Position numbers and translations under genes: made by a program. From Streptomyces roseirectus (GTDB taxonomy: Bacteria; Actinomycetota; Actinomycetes; Streptomycetales; Streptomycetaceae), in assembly GCF_014489635.1 (NCBI RefSeq), contig NZ_CP060828.1:1612001-1676000 (forward strand): DNA of 64,000 nucleotides, read 5' to 3'. Below, piece after piece: positions 1 through 6,249 of this stretch (position 1 is the first letter of the stretch; every line of letters starts with the position of its first letter). Under the pieces are notes generated by a model. It did no database searches, was not told the DNA's origin, and saw nothing but the letters and a program-made list of their open reading frames with translations.

Positions 1-436
1 GGGCGGTGCTCAGGTCGGTGACCGCCTGCCGGATCACCTCGATGAAGTCCGTCCCGGCGCCCTCGTGCTGCTCGCGCCGGCGCAGGCGCTGCGCGCAGTC
101 CGGGGTCTTCTCCCGGCCCAGCGCGTCGAGGGAGCGGGGCGGGCAGACCTTGTCGACGGCCGTCTGGCCCGGCTCGTCGGCGCTCGCGAAGCCCAGCACC
201 TCCAGCGTGGAGCGGCTGGACGGCTCGCTCACCGCGATCGTGCCGACGGCTTCCCGCTCGCGCTCCACGTCACCGGCGCCGAGGCTGGCGGACTGGTCGA
301 CGGCGACGACGTAGTGGACGGGCCGGTCGGTGCTCTCGTCCGCTGCGGCCGTCGGTGTGAGGGCGGCCGTGCTCATCACCGCCGCCGTGGCGAACAGGGC
401 CCCCAGCCGGGTGTACCGGCCCCTGGAACTGGTCAA
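1..436 (-). CDS. Secreted von Willebrand factor A domain protein (partial)
   Basis: The gene is cut by the left edge of the window, so only the N-terminal ~145 residues are visible. A signal peptide follows the start: a basic RGRYTR stretch, then LGALFATAAVMSTAALT and an Ala-rich cleavage region ending AAADE. Next comes HYVVAVDQSASL, a textbook VWA metal-ion site (DxSxS), so it is probably an exported protein that binds a ligand through a divalent metal. The start taken is TTG at 436, which has GGGGAG about 9 bases upstream. An in-frame GTG at 463 is possible but has no clear ribosome site. The C-terminal domains lie outside the window, so the partner or substrate cannot be inferred. It is transcribed in the same direction as the operon at 645-6249, but a terminator-like repeat separates them. 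Confidence 0.8.
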   Translation of the reverse strand, partial: MTSSRGRYTRLGALFATAAVMSTAALTPTAAADESTDRPVHYVVAVDQSASLGAGDVEREREAVGTIAVSEPSSRSTLEVLGFASADEPGQTAVDKVCPPRSLDALGREKTPDCAQRLRRREQHEGAGTDFIEVIRQAVTDLSTA

Positions 437-598
437 GTCTCGGTGCTCCCCTGAACTCGTCACCTGAAATCGTCACCTCATGAGTCGCCCCTCTCCCCAG
501 GGGCAACTCCGTGTGGTCGTTCACGCTATTCCCGTAGGACAGTCGGCGTGTCTGATTTCCATAAGAGCGTGGCGAATTAGTTGCGGGGGGTTCGATTC

Positions 599-644: not shown

Positions 645-1742
645 CTATTTCTGACCGGGTCGGACGTCCAGGAGCGAGGCGAGCCGGGATTCCTGCGCGC
701 TCAGTGCCTCGGGGGTGCGGGGGCGGGCCGCGCGGAAGGCGTCCATGCGGCGCTCCAGTTCGCGGCGGCGGGCGCCGGGGTCCGCGCACCAGAGCTGGAA
801 GAAGCCGCCGGAGCGCAGGACGACGACGGAGCCGAGGGCGGGGAGGTCGCCGGTGAGGCCGTCCCCGGCGGGGCCGGCGCCCGTGAAGTCGTCCTCCGCG
901 AGGCGCACGCGGTGCATGCCGTCGGGGTCGCGGTGGGGCGGGTGGGCGGCGAGGCCGCGGCGGCTCAGCCAGCGCCCTGCCTCCTCCTCGAACGCCTTGC
1001 GGGCCCGGCGGCCCGCGTCGGCGAGGGCGCTCAGGCAGGCGGGCGAGCGGTCCAGGGCCCGGCTGAGGACGGGGTCGGGTTCGCCCCGGCGGGGGCGGGT
1101 GCAGACGAGGTGGCGGGCGTCCCCGGTGCGCACGACGTGGGCGAGCAGGTACTCGACGTCCCAGGTCAGGGCCTTCGGGTCGGCGACGCCGGGTTCCGCG
1201 AGGGCGTGCGCGGCCTCCGGGCGGAACGGGTCGGGGGCCAGCAGGGGCGGGGGCGACGTCCAGGTGTCGAGGGGCGCGGGTCCCGCCGGGCCCTTCTCGG
1301 CGTGGCCCTCGGCCAGCGGGGTGCCGGTCCAGGCGTCGAAGTACACGACGCGGCGGTCGCCGAGCTTCACCGTGTACATCTCGCCGTCCGCCAGGGAGCG
1401 CCGGCCCAGGTCGGTGAGGGTCAGCCGGCCCCGGTCCTCGGTGAGATGGCCGACGGCCCTGAGGTAGGCGAGGGCCTGGCGGGTCAGCGCCGGGTCCAGG
1501 GCGAGGAACGTGGCCAGCTCGTCGGGCGTGGTGAGGCCGGCCTCCTCGACGCCGCGGCTCAGGTAGCGGTCGACGAGCTGGTAGGGCTCGGCCGTGGTGA
1601 CCCTCGCCTCGACCTCCACCCGCCATACGGGCAGCAGGAGTTGGTGCACCGACTCGGGGGCGGCGCGCAGCTGGAACGCCGCGTGCTCGACCGCGCGGGC
1701 GGGCGGGAAGCCGAGGGGGTTGCTGCGGGGACGGGGGATCAT
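645..1742 (-). CDS. Unrecognised winged-helix-like protein, third gene of the phosphorylase-helicase operon
   Basis: A 365-residue protein starting at ATG 1742, which overlaps the helicase stop by 4 bp (ATGA), so translation is probably coupled. No enzyme family is recognisable. Residues ~45-115 (LVDRYLSRGV, then TTPDELATFLAL, DPALTRQALAYLRAVGHL and GRLTLTDLG) read like a winged helix-turn-helix with the usual TxxLG wing, which suggests DNA binding or scaffolding. Residues ~120-150 are beta-rich and contain a KLGDRRVVYFDAWTG stretch. The rest is Arg/Pro-rich, with a late beta segment (GSVVVLRSGGFFQLWC) near residue 310. There is no signal peptide or membrane segment. Position and overlap imply that it works with the phosphorylase-pseudokinase and the helicase, possibly as sensor or adaptor. 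That role is inferred from context only. Confidence 0.72.
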   Translation of the reverse strand: MIPRPRSNPLGFPPARAVEHAAFQLRAAPESVHQLLLPVWRVEVEARVTTAEPYQLVDRYLSRGVEEAGLTTPDELATFLALDPALTRQALAYLRAVGHLTEDRGRLTLTDLGRRSLADGEMYTVKLGDRRVVYFDAWTGTPLAEGHAEKGPAGPAPLDTWTSPPPLLAPDPFRPEAAHALAEPGVADPKALTWDVEYLLAHVVRTGDARHLVCTRPRRGEPDPVLSRALDRSPACLSALADAGRRARKAFEEEAGRWLSRRGLAAHPPHRDPDGMHRVRLAEDDFTGAGPAGDGLTGDLPALGSVVVLRSGGFFQLWCADPGARRRELERRMDAFRAARPRTPEALSAQESRLASLLDVRPGQK

Positions 1743-4591
1743 GCCGTGCGGGCTCCCAGACGTGCTTGCAGGTCGCGCGACGGCAGTGACTCGCCGACCG
1801 TCGCGGTGTGGTCGCGCAGGGCGCGGGCCAAGGCGCGGAACCCGTCGTCCGTGGCCCGGGTGAGGGTGTCGAAGTCCCCGACGAGGACCAGGCGGCGCCG
1901 GGCGCGGGTGAACGCGACGTTGGCGCGCCGCAGTTCGTCCAGGAAGCCGACCGTGCCGGCCGGGTTGCTGCGGGTGAACCCGTAGAGGACCACGTCGCGT
2001 TCGCCGCCCTGGAACGAGTCGACGGTCGCGATGTCGCCCCGGCCCGGCGGCAGGTCCCTCAAGTGGTTGCGGATCAGGGCGGCTTGGGCCCGGTAGGGCA
2101 CGATGACCGCCCACTCCTCGTCGTCCGCCGTGCAGCGGCGGGCCAGCGCGGCGAGCAGCGCGGCCTCGGCCCGGTTGATCCGGCCCTGCGGGGTGCCGCC
2201 CTCGGCGCGTTCGGCCGGGGGGAGGTCGCAGGTGTCGACGAGGACGAGGGGGGTGCGGAACAGGGGGTGAGGGGTGGGGAGTTGGGTGACGCGCGGATCC
2301 GTGCTCCTGCGCGCGCCGGGGATCTCCGGACTGTCCGGGCCGTTCTCGGTGAGCAACTGCCCGTCGTAGAACGCCTTCGAGCAGAAGTCGGCGATCTCGC
2401 GGGGCATGCGGCGCTGGGTGCGCAGGTGGGCGACGGCCGTGTCCGGAAGGTGTTCCTGGAGGAGTTCGAGGACGCTGCGGACGGCCGACTCGGCGGCCTG
2501 CGGGCCGTGTTCGGCGCCGATCCGGGCCACCGTCTCCTCGTCGGCGTAGGGCGGGAGCTGGCGGTGGTCGCCGACGAGGACGGCGCGCCGGGCGCGGACC
2601 AGCGGGACGAGCGCGTCGGCGGTGGTGATCTGCCCGGCCTCGTCGAGGACGGCGAGGTCGAAGTCGACGCCGGTCAGCAGCGCGGGTCCGGCGGCGCCGC
2701 TGCTGGTGGCGCCCACGACATGGGCGTACCGCACGAGTTCGGCGTGCAGTCGGCTCCCGGCCGCGCGGACGTCGTCCCGCCACTCGGCGAGCAGGGCGCG
2801 GCGGGCGGCGAGGAGGGGGTGGGCGGTGCGGGCCCAGCGGGCGAAGGCGTACAGGTCGGCGGGGGCGTCGCCGACCGGCGCGAGGAGGGCGCGGCAGGGT
2901 GCCTCGACGTACTCGGCCTCCTTGCGGCACCGGGTCACCTCCCGGGCGGCGCGGTCGACGTCCGCGCGGCGTTCACGGACGGCGGGGTGGTCGCGGGTCG
3001 CCTCGTCGAGGGCGCCCTCGGCGGCACGCCGGTCCCGTTCGGCCTGCTCGACGGCCTCGCCGTACACCGCCAACGCCTTGTCCGCGCGCCGGAGTCGGCG
3101 GTCCCGCCACCAGCCGGGGGGCTGCTCGCTCAGCCGGGCCCGGCGCTCGGCCGTGCGGGCGCTGCGGTCGAGGGTGCGGCGCAGGCGTTCGGCGGTGCGG
3201 TCGAGGCGTGTCTGCGCGGGGCCCGCGACTCCGCGGCGGGCCTCCGCGAGGGCGGCCTCGGCGTCCCGGCGGCGCTCCTGGGCCGTCTCCAGGGCGCCGA
3301 CGGCGTCGTACAGGGCCTTGGGCCGGTGTTCGGCGCCGGGGCCGCACGCGGTGTGGGCGGCGAGGCGGGCGCCGACCCGGTCCAGGACGCCCTGGCGCAG
3401 GTCGGCGGCGCGGTGGTCGAGGAGGAGGTGGCGGGCGGCCGGGTCGACGCGGTGCTCGGCGCCGACGCGCAGCACCACGAGGCCGGCGGGGAGGCGAGTG
3501 AGGACGTTGTCGACGGCCGTGTTGCTGTGCGCGGTGACCAGGACGCGCTCGCCCGACTTCGCGGCCTCCTGGGCGAGTTGGGTGATGACGGTGGTCTTTC
3601 CGGTGCCGGGCGGGCCGATGATCGCCGCGAGGTCGTCGGCGGCGAGGGCGGTGTGCAGGGCGGCGCTCTGCCACCGGTCGAGCGCGGGGGCGTCCGGCTG
3701 CCGTCTCGGTGACGTGCGGGGTGTCCGGGTGCCCGTGAGGATCGGCAGGAGGCGGGGGTTGCGGGCGTGGCCGTCGCGCAGGGCGGTGAGGGCGTCGGTG
3801 CGGCGGGCGTGCACGACCGTGTTCTCCACGCGCTCCAACTCGCCCTGTTTCGGCAGGCGTTGCCAGTCGACGGGCCGCTCCAGGGCCAGCGTCAGCCGTG
3901 CGGCGCGCTGGTCCACCGCCACGACCTGGCCGCGTACGGACGCCTCGCCCCGCACCCTCAGGACCTCGTCCTCGGCGGGCGTCGCGCGACCGTGCAGGAC
4001 GAACGTGTACGTGGCGTGCCGGTCCGTCGGCTGGACGTCCCGGTAGGTGAACGGCCGTGCCGCCGCGGCCCGTTCGCGCTGCACCTCGTGCTCGGTGTCG
4101 ACGGCCTTGGTCAGCAGGTCGAGCCGGCGGGCCTCCCGTCCGTCCGGGTCGCGGTGGCCCTTGGTGGCCGACTCCTTGCGCAGCAGCTCCCATTCGGCGC
4201 GCAACAGGTCCCAGTGGGTGTGCGTCGAGACGGCGGCGGTGTGGCGGATCGTCCACGCGGTGGGGCGCAGGAGGAGGCAGCCGCGGGCCAGGCGGTGGTG
4301 GTCGTCGAAGCGCAGGGCGGTGACCGTGCGGACCTGGTAGGCGCGGGCGTCCGGGGCGGGGACGAGGAGGGCGAGCCAGCCGCGTCCGTACAGGGCCAGC
4401 GCCTGCTGGCGGCGGCCGGGTGGGGGGAAGGTCGCGGGGACGGACTCCCGTGCGGACAGGTCGGTTTCGAGTTCTTCGACGCTGCTCGGGAGGTGGGGGT
4501 GGTCGCGGCGCAGGCGGGTGAGGACGCCGTCCAGGGAGCGGGCGGGGATCAGGGTGAGGGGGGTGGGCAGGTCGAGGGTGCGGGTCAGCAT
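1739..4591 (-). CDS. Superfamily 1 (UPF1/DNA2-like) AAA helicase
   Basis: A 950-residue SF1 helicase. Residues ~1-300 are an accessory N-terminal region including a beta-barrel-like part. Walker A GPPGTGKT is at 326-333. A long charged, probably coiled-coil insertion (~400-570) precedes Walker B (LAVLDEAGQ). After this come motif III (GDHRQLPP), motif IV (RTQRRMPREIADF), motif V (DSFQGGERDVVLYG) and motif VI (NVAFTRARRRLVLVGD). All catalytic motifs are intact, so ATP-driven translocation on nucleic acid is expected. The start is ATG 4591, overlapping the upstream phosphorylase-kinase gene by 7 bp; the downstream gene overlaps by 4 bp. Helicases of this class recur in bacterial defence operons as sensors or effectors of foreign nucleic acid. 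That role here is an inference. Confidence 0.9.
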   Translation of the reverse strand: MLTRTLDLPTPLTLIPARSLDGVLTRLRRDHPHLPSSVEELETDLSARESVPATFPPPGRRQQALALYGRGWLALLVPAPDARAYQVRTVTALRFDDHHRLARGCLLLRPTAWTIRHTAAVSTHTHWDLLRAEWELLRKESATKGHRDPDGREARRLDLLTKAVDTEHEVQRERAAAARPFTYRDVQPTDRHATYTFVLHGRATPAEDEVLRVRGEASVRGQVVAVDQRAARLTLALERPVDWQRLPKQGELERVENTVVHARRTDALTALRDGHARNPRLLPILTGTRTPRTSPRRQPDAPALDRWQSAALHTALAADDLAAIIGPPGTGKTTVITQLAQEAAKSGERVLVTAHSNTAVDNVLTRLPAGLVVLRVGAEHRVDPAARHLLLDHRAADLRQGVLDRVGARLAAHTACGPGAEHRPKALYDAVGALETAQERRRDAEAALAEARRGVAGPAQTRLDRTAERLRRTLDRSARTAERRARLSEQPPGWWRDRRLRRADKALAVYGEAVEQAERDRRAAEGALDEATRDHPAVRERRADVDRAAREVTRCRKEAEYVEAPCRALLAPVGDAPADLYAFARWARTAHPLLAARRALLAEWRDDVRAAGSRLHAELVRYAHVVGATSSGAAGPALLTGVDFDLAVLDEAGQITTADALVPLVRARRAVLVGDHRQLPPYADEETVARIGAEHGPQAAESAVRSVLELLQEHLPDTAVAHLRTQRRMPREIADFCSKAFYDGQLLTENGPDSPEIPGARRSTDPRVTQLPTPHPLFRTPLVLVDTCDLPPAERAEGGTPQGRINRAEAALLAALARRCTADDEEWAVIVPYRAQAALIRNHLRDLPPGRGDIATVDSFQGGERDVVLYGFTRSNPAGTVGFLDELRRANVAFTRARRRLVLVGDFDTLTRATDDGFRALARALRDHTATVGESLPSRDLQARLGARTA

Positions 4592-6249
4592 GGGGTGGGG
4601 TTCTCGGTGAGGGTGGCGGATCGGCGGAGGTGGGCGGCCAGGTCGAGGGCGGTGAAGCGGGCTGCGGGGATGGGGTTGAGGGCTGCGCGCAGGATGTCGT
4701 CCAGGGGGTCGGGGGCGTGCTGGAGGAAGGTGCGCAGGGGGAGGGGGTAGGGGCGGTCGGGAATTGCGCCGGTGAGCAACTGGTAGGTGAGGGAAGCGAG
4801 TTGATAGATGTCGGCGGGCGGGCCGATCAGGTCGGGGCGGTAGGAGGTGCACTCCTGTTCGGGGGCGCGGTGGGCGGGGTGGCCCTCGCCGGGGTGTGGG
4901 GCGTGGAAGGCGGATCCGAGGTCGCGCAGCCACAGCCAGGTCCCGTCGTGCAGGACGGTCTGCGGGGAGAGGCAGCGGTGTGCGTGGCCCTCCCGGTGCA
5001 GGACGTCGAGGGATTCGGCGAGGGACGCGCAGCCCAGCAGGGTCCGGCTCATCGCGCTGCCGGGCACGGGCCCCGTCCTGCGCACGTCGGCCAGAGCGAC
5101 CGCCGGCCTCTGCGACGGCTTCGACGCGGGCCACCACAGGGCGAGCAGTGCGGTGTCCGCTCTCAGCTCGTAGGCGTGGCGATGCGGCAGACGCGGGCTC
5201 CCCATGGTTCCCGCCAGGAACTCGAACTCCCGCCGCAGCGCCTCCCGTCGTTCTCCCGGGGTGTCGACCCGCCGCACCCACACATGATCCGCCCTCCGCC
5301 GGCTCGCCGGAACCGCCAGCAGCGCCCTCCCCCAGTACTCGCCCTCCTCCCCCTGCCCCACCAGCCCGTCCTCCAACAGGAATTCCATGCCGCCGACCTC
5401 CACCACGGCCCCGGCCCGCCATCCGCGCGGCGCCTCGGCAGGCACTTCGACGACCTCGGGGGCGTCCGTCTCCTCCTCGTCGTCCCGCAGTTCCCGGACG
5501 ACCTCCAGTGCGAACGCCGCCGCGTTGCGGGCCGCTGTCTCCCGGCCCCGGTCGGTCCGGTCGGTGATCCCCCGGACCGTCAGTGCGGGCCATCCCCGGT
5601 GCATGTGCGCGGCCTGGGCCATGCCCGCGCTCTCGGTCTCTAGGGCCACGGCGTCCTCGTACGTCCGGCGCAGCCGTTCCCGGTAGGCGGACTCCTGGTG
5701 GGCGGACCCTTGATGGGCGGCCCCCTCCCCCTCAAGTACCACCTCACCGGCGGCGACCGGCTTGAAGTGGACGGGCGGGGCGCCGGGGACGCGGCGCCAG
5801 CGGCGGTGCGCGGCGGCGGCCGTCTGCCGTACCTCGTGGGAGAGTTGCCAGGACTCGGGCCGGGCGTGGAAGCCGCCGCCGGTGTCCTTGCCGCCGTGCA
5901 CCCCGTACACCTTGGTGGCTACGACGACGTCCCCGACCGCCACGCCTTCCTTGAGCCCGCCCGCGACGCCGACGAACATCACCAGGCGGGGTCTGAACCG
6001 TTCGACGGCGTGGGTGGCGACGACCGCCGCGCCCCCGTTGCCGGTGCCGATCTCCGCGAGCGCGATCCGCCAGGGCGTCCCGTCGAGCCAGCCGAGCCGG
6101 TACAGGGTGCCGATGCCGTCGCGGGCGCGGCTCGCCCGGTCCCCCGCCAACAGGCTTTCCACCGCGTCGAATTCGAGATCCGAAGCGGTGAGGACGACGG
6201 CCGTCGGACCGTCGTCCTCCTTTTCTCGCGCAGCGCTCACGCGTGCCAC
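4585..6249 (-). CDS. Nucleoside phosphorylase/nucleosidase fused to a protein pseudokinase
   Basis: A 554-residue fusion. Residues ~15-255 form a PNP/UDP phosphorylase (MTA/SAH nucleosidase-like) domain: GTGN at 68-71, FVGVAGGL at 92-99, ETES at 204-207 and RGITD at 226-230 with the usual catalytic Asp. It therefore looks active in N-glycosidic bond cleavage. Residues ~285-545 are protein-kinase-like, with a glycine loop GQGEEGEYWG (299-308), RAPEQ for APE (461-465) and a DIYQLASLTYQLLTG helix. The VAIK Lys is Arg326, HRD is HRC (424-426) and DFG is DLG, so phosphotransfer is doubtful. It is the first gene of a three-gene overlapping operon. The GTG start at 6249 has no clear ribosome site and may be leaderless; GTG 6240 is an alternative. 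PNP-type domains that destroy ATP are known effectors in Detocs, CBASS and Avs systems. Confidence 0.88.
   Translation of the reverse strand: MARVSAAREKEDDGPTAVVLTASDLEFDAVESLLAGDRASRARDGIGTLYRLGWLDGTPWRIALAEIGTGNGGAAVVATHAVERFRPRLVMFVGVAGGLKEGVAVGDVVVATKVYGVHGGKDTGGGFHARPESWQLSHEVRQTAAAAHRRWRRVPGAPPVHFKPVAAGEVVLEGEGAAHQGSAHQESAYRERLRRTYEDAVALETESAGMAQAAHMHRGWPALTVRGITDRTDRGRETAARNAAAFALEVVRELRDDEEETDAPEVVEVPAEAPRGWRAGAVVEVGGMEFLLEDGLVGQGEEGEYWGRALLAVPASRRRADHVWVRRVDTPGERREALRREFEFLAGTMGSPRLPHRHAYELRADTALLALWWPASKPSQRPAVALADVRRTGPVPGSAMSRTLLGCASLAESLDVLHREGHAHRCLSPQTVLHDGTWLWLRDLGSAFHAPHPGEGHPAHRAPEQECTSYRPDLIGPPADIYQLASLTYQLLTGAIPDRPYPLPLRTFLQHAPDPLDDILRAALNPIPAARFTALDLAAHLRRSATLTENPTPC

Follow-up and report, generated by a model that had tools for sequence, protein, structure and literature searches.

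What does an operon do in which a nucleoside-cleaving domain shares one protein with a degenerate kinase, next to a helicase and a winged-helix protein? The question is raised by a locus of Streptomyces roseirectus near the start of a stretch of 64,000 nucleotides (positions 1,612,001 to 1,676,000 of contig NZ_CP060828.1, assembly GCF_014489635.1), which is referred to here as the window. The genome is a single contig of 9.95 Mb, in which the window falls at 1.61-1.68 Mb. A preliminary description of this DNA had proposed a new defence operon that depletes nucleoside triphosphates (NTPs). Based on profile searches, structural models and a comparison of related loci, we estimate with a probability of about 0.62 that genes A, B and C of this locus constitute a Mokosh-related immune system of the abortive-infection type with an interchangeable effector. 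All three genes are located on the minus strand. Gene A overlaps gene B over positions 4585-4591 (7 bp) and gene B overlaps gene C over positions 1739-1742 (4 bp), in agreement with the layout given before. The reading frames of A, B and C each agree with the GC content per codon position (in 300 bp steps).

The pseudokinase of gene A and its N-terminal modules

Gene A (4585..6249) encodes a PNP-type nucleosidase fused to a pseudokinase, an assignment based on its open reading frame (ORF), Pfam and an AlphaFold2 model (mean predicted local distance difference test score, pLDDT, 86.1; predicted template modelling score, pTM, 0.57). Translation from the GTG at position 6249 yields 554 amino acids, and a second GTG at 6240 yields the form on record of 551 amino acids. 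The pseudokinase domain comprises about residues 272-552 (4594..5436, minus strand). Pfam gives a sub-threshold Pkinase match (E 0.0032, residues 408-497), and the kinase part also matches the PADLOC profile of the Mokosh protein MkoA (3.5e-9). Two sets of relatives are considered here, namely 35 loci that were found with all three genes and 155 proteins that were clustered by their N-terminus. The latter all have a kinase match; they were drawn from the 120 listed of the 184 matches obtained when 5.8 billion proteins were searched with a kinase alignment, and include 46 proteins from a PNP-containing query. The catalytic-loop Asp is lost at all 35 loci and in 152 of the 155 proteins, and the catalytic-loop Asn at 34 loci and in all 155 proteins. 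The β3 Lys is replaced by Arg at 34 loci (His at the other one) and, again, in all 155 proteins. The DFG Asp is retained at 34 loci (one gap) and in 155 out of 155 proteins, and the APE Glu is likewise retained in the pseudokinase family. Five control kinases from Mokosh-type operons all keep both the Asp and the Asn; the β3 Lys can be aligned in only two of these five and is a Lys in both. Such a near-uniform catalytic loss, with the DFG Asp and APE Glu kept, points to a conserved pseudokinase rather than to random decay, which bears out the degenerate kinase noticed earlier. The pseudokinase, and not the PNP domain, is the constant part of the gene A family.

The N-terminal half of gene A is a PNP/MTAN-like effector domain (residues 17-241; 5527..6201, minus strand), matched in Pfam by PNP_UDP_1 (PF01048) with an E-value of 9.5e-25 and assigned the MTAN fold by structure comparison of the model. 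The residues aligned to the MTAN catalytic residues (E26, E206 and D230) are all present in the window. Each is kept in 47 of 49 alignment rows, the exceptions being two gaps for E26, one V and one G for E206 and two N for D230, so that the active site is as intact-looking as first described. PADLOC matches the domain with its 'Effector PN-superfamily' profile (8.3e-16), and a table of PMC10952713 lists PF01048 with '(d)ATP degradation/cell death'. Gene A thus has three things in common with the Cap17-type PNP effectors that act in Detocs, CBASS and NLR-like systems, namely PF01048 as a fused effector, the PN-superfamily match and an intact PNP-fold nucleosidase active site. It differs from those systems in that its PNP domain is attached to a pseudokinase and accompanied by a helicase and a winged-helix protein, and in that no CD-NTase, STAND or two-component domain occurs in A, in C or among the best 25 matches of B. 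In Detocs, the PNP protein is partnered by the two-component-like DtcA and DtcB, and neither a histidine-kinase nor a response-regulator family is present in A, in C or among the same 25 matches. Membership of Detocs or CBASS is rejected, as none of the partner domains appears among these matches. Relatives of the PNP domain also include fusions to STAND/NB-ARC/NACHT. An ORF of about 1,520 amino acids (L062:6512-11059, with similar ORFs in L063-L066) carries an N-terminal PNP domain that is 51-52% identical to that of the window (BLASTP); in the L062 protein a weak nSTAND/NACHT match comes after this domain, i.e., a close cousin of the effector on an NLR-type receptor.

In other members of the gene A family the pseudokinase is preceded by different N-termini. 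The 155 proteins fall into clusters with PNP (n = 90), hydrophobic helical (n = 29), RHIM/BASS3-like (n = 16), SEFIR/TIR (n = 8), trypsin (n = 2) and NGDQ-type (n = 2) modules, next to eight singletons, most of which have little N-terminus (one is a further NGDQ and one is RHIM-like by eye). The PNP share is inflated since 46 of the 155 proteins stem from the PNP-containing query. Directly beside genes B and C, a PNP module was verified at 14 loci, a restriction endonuclease (REase)-like module at 14, a BASS3-like module at five (L077, L078, L081, L087 and the looser L172) and an NGDQ (L170) and a helical hydrophobic module (L171) at one each. The REase-like module displays an E...GID...QxK pattern at 14 out of 14 loci and a single sub-threshold Mrr_cat match (0.043). 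Its label is based on these two findings and on general knowledge of such motifs, as comparison of its profile with the PDB returned nothing convincing and Pfam no match in L146 and L160. Across sister operons, the N-terminal module hence behaves as exchangeable, in line with the effector role originally attributed to the PNP domain.

This exchange also bears on another explanation, in which the PNP domain leaves ATP undepleted and instead produces a signal or consumes a different pool, such as 5'-methylthioadenosine/S-adenosylhomocysteine (MTA/SAH) or other nucleosides, so that the operon would be a signalling or salvage-type regulator and not a suicide system. The nearest solved structures are indeed MTA/SAH nucleosidases, and passages of PMC7159879 (eLife 2020) propose that the base released by PNPase domains serves as a second messenger. 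Yet the same position is held elsewhere by REase-like, SEFIR/TIR and amyloid-type modules, whose common theme is killing or effector recruitment and not purine salvage, and PADLOC groups the domain with effectors. We therefore consider this explanation unlikely.

The BASS-type N-termini roughly follow the pattern [N/H]xVxG, a few residues, and xxQ[A/V]GxxxG[D/N]VxxH. The same pattern is found near the start of P-loop proteins (L209, L212 and L215) in the genomes of L077, L078 and L087, and these proteins appear NB-ARC NLR-like by eye. In Actinophytocola algeriensis, it is located at the very end of a 114 amino acid ORF (L210:601-945), while the search match at this locus (E 0.0055, with an internal stop) falls on the last part of the following ORF, which encodes a SEFIR protein (5.3e-16). 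Together, these two genes (L210:601-1587) may represent an amyloid effector pair, and the same genome also holds a BASS-pseudokinase operon. The motif searches are weak (E 0.002 to 0.16), the motif has no Pfam match and the surroundings of the BASS operons yielded no second protein with a BASS-like pattern. Our reading is that the motif may be BASS3 itself. The arrangement is reminiscent of the one that passages of PMC7889193 and PMC8086366 describe for bacterial amyloid signalosomes. The pseudokinases of the sister operons begin with a motif of the kind found on these NLR-like proteins and on the 114 amino acid protein; the difference is that it sits on a pseudokinase rather than on an NLR, and that the window protein has a PNP domain instead.

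Genes B and C and their kinship to Mokosh

Gene B (1739..4591, minus strand) starts with an ATG and encodes a superfamily 1 (SF1) COG1112/UPF1-like helicase of 950 amino acids. Pfam identifies AAA_11 (1.5e-40) and AAA_12 (6e-36), the PADLOC profile of MkoA (PDLC03920) matches with an E-value of 1.3e-107 over profile positions 448-1099 of 1112, and SMUBP-2 and UPF1 are among the relatives, so the UPF1-like helicase was correctly recognised from the start. The third protein, in contrast, had been called unrecognised and now turns out to be a relative of MkoB. Gene C (645..1742, minus strand; 365 amino acids from an ATG) has no Pfam match above the cut-off but matches the PADLOC profile of MkoB (PDLC03922; 6.3e-15), with residues 34-145 on profile positions 7-123 of 610. 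Its predicted model (mean pLDDT 91.8) contains a MarR-like winged helix-turn-helix domain at residues 51-121 (1380..1592, minus strand). The fold comparison covered mainly these residues, and the absence of a fold for the C-terminal half is consequently not evidence of novelty. In profile comparison, the winged-helix part of gene C aligns with two canonical MkoB proteins (E 4.3e-7), and a link is also seen to the MkoB-like proteins encoded by a five-gene operon type described below (1e-9).

How close, then, is the operon to Mokosh type I? The definitions of Mokosh used here come from passages of other papers and from general background. In one such passage (PMC11672841), type I is defined by a COG1112-family SF1 helicase. 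Two canonical-looking Mokosh I operons from other actinobacteria (L157 and L158) encode an intact kinase (HRD, Asn and DFG) fused to the helicase, and an MkoB that carries the HKD motif (PLDc_2 4.7e-7 in L157). The window shares with type I the adjacency of the genes, the COG1112-type SF1 helicase (gene B, with its MkoA and AAA_11/AAA_12 matches), a kinase-fold domain and the N-terminal winged helix of MkoB (gene C). It departs from type I in its Ser-Thr kinase, which is separate and dead instead of fused to the helicase: the kinase fold is encoded apart from the helicase at 35 of 35 loci, the helicase is free-standing, and the pseudokinase bears an exchangeable effector. It also departs in the phospholipase D (PLD)-family (HKD) nuclease on the partner protein, as all 36 C domains, including one that is truncated, lack the HKD motif. 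In the five C proteins scanned, the MkoB match reaches no further than profile position 123 (window) or positions 124 to 253 (relatives) of 610. A PLD domain hidden in gene C is ruled out, since neither the HKD motif nor an MkoB profile match past position 253 was found in the C proteins scanned. The operon looks like a split MkoA, with the kinase on a protein of its own, together with an MkoB devoid of the HKD motif. Going by their profiles, the sensor parts are Mokosh-like, yet two defining features of Mokosh type I are missing.

A plain Mokosh type I system that has been split and decorated would degrade phage nucleic acid, with the PNP domain as an accessory and the kinase in decay. The MkoA and MkoB profile matches and the homology of gene C to the MkoB N-terminus agree with such a system. 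We nonetheless regard it as decidedly improbable given the missing HKD motif, the early end of the MkoB match, a kinase loss that is too uniform for random decay, and the replacement of PNP by REase-like, SEFIR, BASS3-like and trypsin modules. Conversely, the same profile matches rule out an unconnected new system: as genes B and C are related to MkoA and MkoB, the operon is better described as a divergent relative of Mokosh. The unfamiliar combination put forward in the preliminary description stands in so far as no account of an effector-pseudokinase/COG1112 helicase/MkoB-like operon was found in the open-access literature searched, but the novelty does not extend to genes B and C. Likewise, the comparison with defence-system models that had been advised returned PADLOC matches to Mokosh and to the PN-superfamily, and tied the operon to known systems.

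Another, five-gene Mokosh-like operon type is present in Streptomyces (L026:1995-12560, L027:6004-14755 and L028:2913-13857). It includes a kinase with catalytic Asp and Asn, a COG1112 helicase, an MkoB-like winged-helix protein and a coiled-coil protein, which in L026, where it was scanned, matches AAA_5 weakly. L026 adds a DUF2357 protein (1.4e-7), by which helicase, kinase and MkoB are joined to McrBC-like parts.

Distribution of the three-gene unit

The proposed check of genome neighbourhoods reveals that the three genes travel together. Order A-B-C on a single strand is identical at all 35 loci, and the genes mostly overlap or lie within tens of bases of each other. Irregular spacing at L145, L161 and L174 is caused by split or truncated ORFs. 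The split-looking helicase ORFs at L145:5245-7986 and L174:4301-7211 may reflect either draft assemblies or real damage.

In 392 Streptomyces genomes, gene C has 13 matches, six of which are strong (E < 1e-30, window included). The remaining ones belong to the five-gene type (L026-L028) or are taken as chance, namely L030 and L032 (inside alpha/beta-hydrolase genes) and L029 and L031 (no gene B). Both halves of gene A are matched in five of the 392 genomes (the window's genome included), and B and C adjoin in all five. The sixth strong gene C (L025) is broken: its fragment (L025:1922-2638), on a contig of 4.4 kb, runs into what appears by eye to be transposase-like sequence. A one-pattern scan from gene C across one genome per species (84,980 species) identified 17 loci, of which 14 have the kinase together with B and C (one of these is the L023 contig), one has B and C only, one is the broken copy and one is a weak match. 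Not counted among the 35 loci are L089 (where B and C were found but no kinase), L090/L025 (the same 4.4 kb contig with the broken C), L091 (weak) and L082 (the L023 contig). Two further families of the class contain the kinase in 14 of 35 and 6 of 200 genomes, respectively, a class-wide draw in 15 of 394, and one order-level search in 0 of 22. Because between three (gene A, Streptomyces) and 11 candidates were scored per genome, the Streptomyces, second-family and class counts are lower bounds. In the first family, 16 regions were read for 20 kinase matches, ten of them with B and C; in the second family, B and C lie beside the kinase in six out of six. L156 (an MkoB match with a distant helicase) was not used, and the other four kinase matches of the first family and partial A matches in genomes G196 and G360 were left out.

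In a quick helicase tree, the 36 split-system helicases (the 35 loci and L089) form one supported group, apart from two canonical MkoA and three five-gene helicases. The seven N-terminal labels on this tree (outgroup and 'none' included) require seven changes against a minimum of six. The REase-like form makes up one supported group, whereas two or more of the changes have to be assigned to the BASS label.

The sparse distribution also has to be weighed against a non-immune function, i.e., a Streptomyces regulator of development or stress whose helicase and winged-helix protein would have RNA or genes of the host as their targets. That every named relative is actinobacterial, and that actinobacteria are rich in kinases, would fit. 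Such a regulator becomes highly improbable, however, in view of the presence of both halves of gene A in only 5 of 392 congeners, its absence beside the flanking gene in the seven relatives read, the swapping of modules and the kinship to a phage-defence family.

Proposed mechanism and genomic setting

The sequences themselves document how the genes are built and to which families they belong, the loss of kinase residues, the swapping of modules and a conserved nucleosidase site. Starting from there, an immune operon of this kind may operate as follows. Judging from their families, genes B and C would sense foreign or abnormal nucleic acid. The pseudokinase half would not phosphorylate, but would dock the effector and couple it to the sensor. 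Once activated, and by analogy with related effectors, the PNP domain would split purine nucleosides or nucleotides at their N-glycosidic bond, with ATP or dATP as the most plausible substrate, resulting in the arrest or death of the infected cell. Sister operons would use the same chassis with a REase-like domain, a RHIM/BASS3-like motif or other modules. A bolder reading, for which we hold the odds to fall slightly short of even, is that of a modular immune machine of actinobacteria that would take over the role of NLR and STAND receptors while having no STAND NTPase, in which a COG1112 helicase and an MkoB-like protein form the sensor and the pseudokinase is a universal adaptor onto which killers (a purine nucleosidase, a REase-like nuclease, SEFIR/TIR or a trypsin-like peptidase) or a RHIM-like amyloid motif are clipped. 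As a similarly tentative part of it, the RHIM-like motif would hand the signal to Bell-type proteins encoded elsewhere in the genome.

Several observations weigh against an interchangeable-effector immune system. The best structural matches of the PNP domain are metabolic enzymes, and many of its nearest sequences are free-standing proteins of 300-390 amino acids. Sequence alone leaves the PNP substrate unfixed, and NTP depletion is what we infer. Three of the 155 proteins do carry an Asp at the HRD position. SEFIR (n = 8) and trypsin (n = 2) fusions are known as proteins only and are not placed beside B and C. The preliminary description had named partnerless homologues, or homologues found only beside a housekeeping pathway, as arguments against a defence operon. 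This does not apply to the PNP form, with B and C adjoining A in 5 of 5 Streptomyces genomes, but it does in part to the wider kinase family, as 6 of the 16 loci read in the first family lack B and C (L148, L149, L150, L152, L155 and L159). These six kinases, which are outside the set of 35 loci, have lost the catalytic Asp as well, and the REase-like N-terminus of L149 looks damaged by eye. Searches with the helicase gave no match among 50,697 phage records (E 1e-20) and a single partial one among 72,556 plasmid records (E 1e-30), so that it is patchiness that points to mobility of the operon. Finally, the vWA genes on the flank belong to a cassette of their own, and a 'defence island' is no more than suggestive.

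This cluster begins with a secreted-looking von Willebrand factor A (vWA) gene of 739 amino acids on the minus strand (1..463, continuing left of the window), with a VWA match below the Pfam cut-off (0.00088) and a Tubulin_2 match on the next gene (2.7e-62). Further on in the cluster there is a weak double-GTPase match (0.035); besides window positions 1-463, the coordinates recorded for the vWA/Tubulin_2/possible GTPase cluster are L176:575-8463 and L206:6433-12806. A vWA relative stands beside the operon in the window, L075, L076 and L021 (the check for Tubulin_2 covered L076, L021 and the genome of the window). Of 198 other Streptomyces searched, 30 also have vWA relatives, and these 30 are all absent from the strong gene C list; the cluster is accordingly a neighbour and its membership of the operon is ruled out. 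Passages of PMC7159879 describe GTPase-centred and MoxR-vWA conflict systems of multicellular bacteria and report, for actinobacterial conflict systems, a variety of effectors, kinases with disrupted catalytic residues and PNPase domains. The vWA/Tubulin_2 cluster resembles the GTPase-centred ones, whereas the core of the operon is a COG1112 helicase with an MkoB-like protein in place of MoxR-vWA or GTPases. On the right flank, a divergent oxygenase-like gene (a Rieske-type oxygenase by eye) is matched in 20 of 41 genomes, and in seven out of seven neighbourhoods read it is kept at 85-91% identity without A, B, C or a vWA match. With a vWA/tubulin-like cluster on one side and this oxygenase-like gene on the other, the earlier remark that the operon has no metabolic neighbour is roughly right.

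The operon brings together three strands that stood apart in the literature considered here, namely helicases of the Mokosh kind, suicide effectors of the PNP type and amyloid signalling in bacteria. If our interpretation holds, a conserved bacterial pseudokinase would be the coupling hub of an immune system, and a swapped module would change the mode of killing while leaving sensing unchanged. It would also offer a handle on how Mokosh-type helicases detect infection, with purine loss, DNA cleavage and membrane damage as read-outs that would vary from operon to operon on one kind of sensor.

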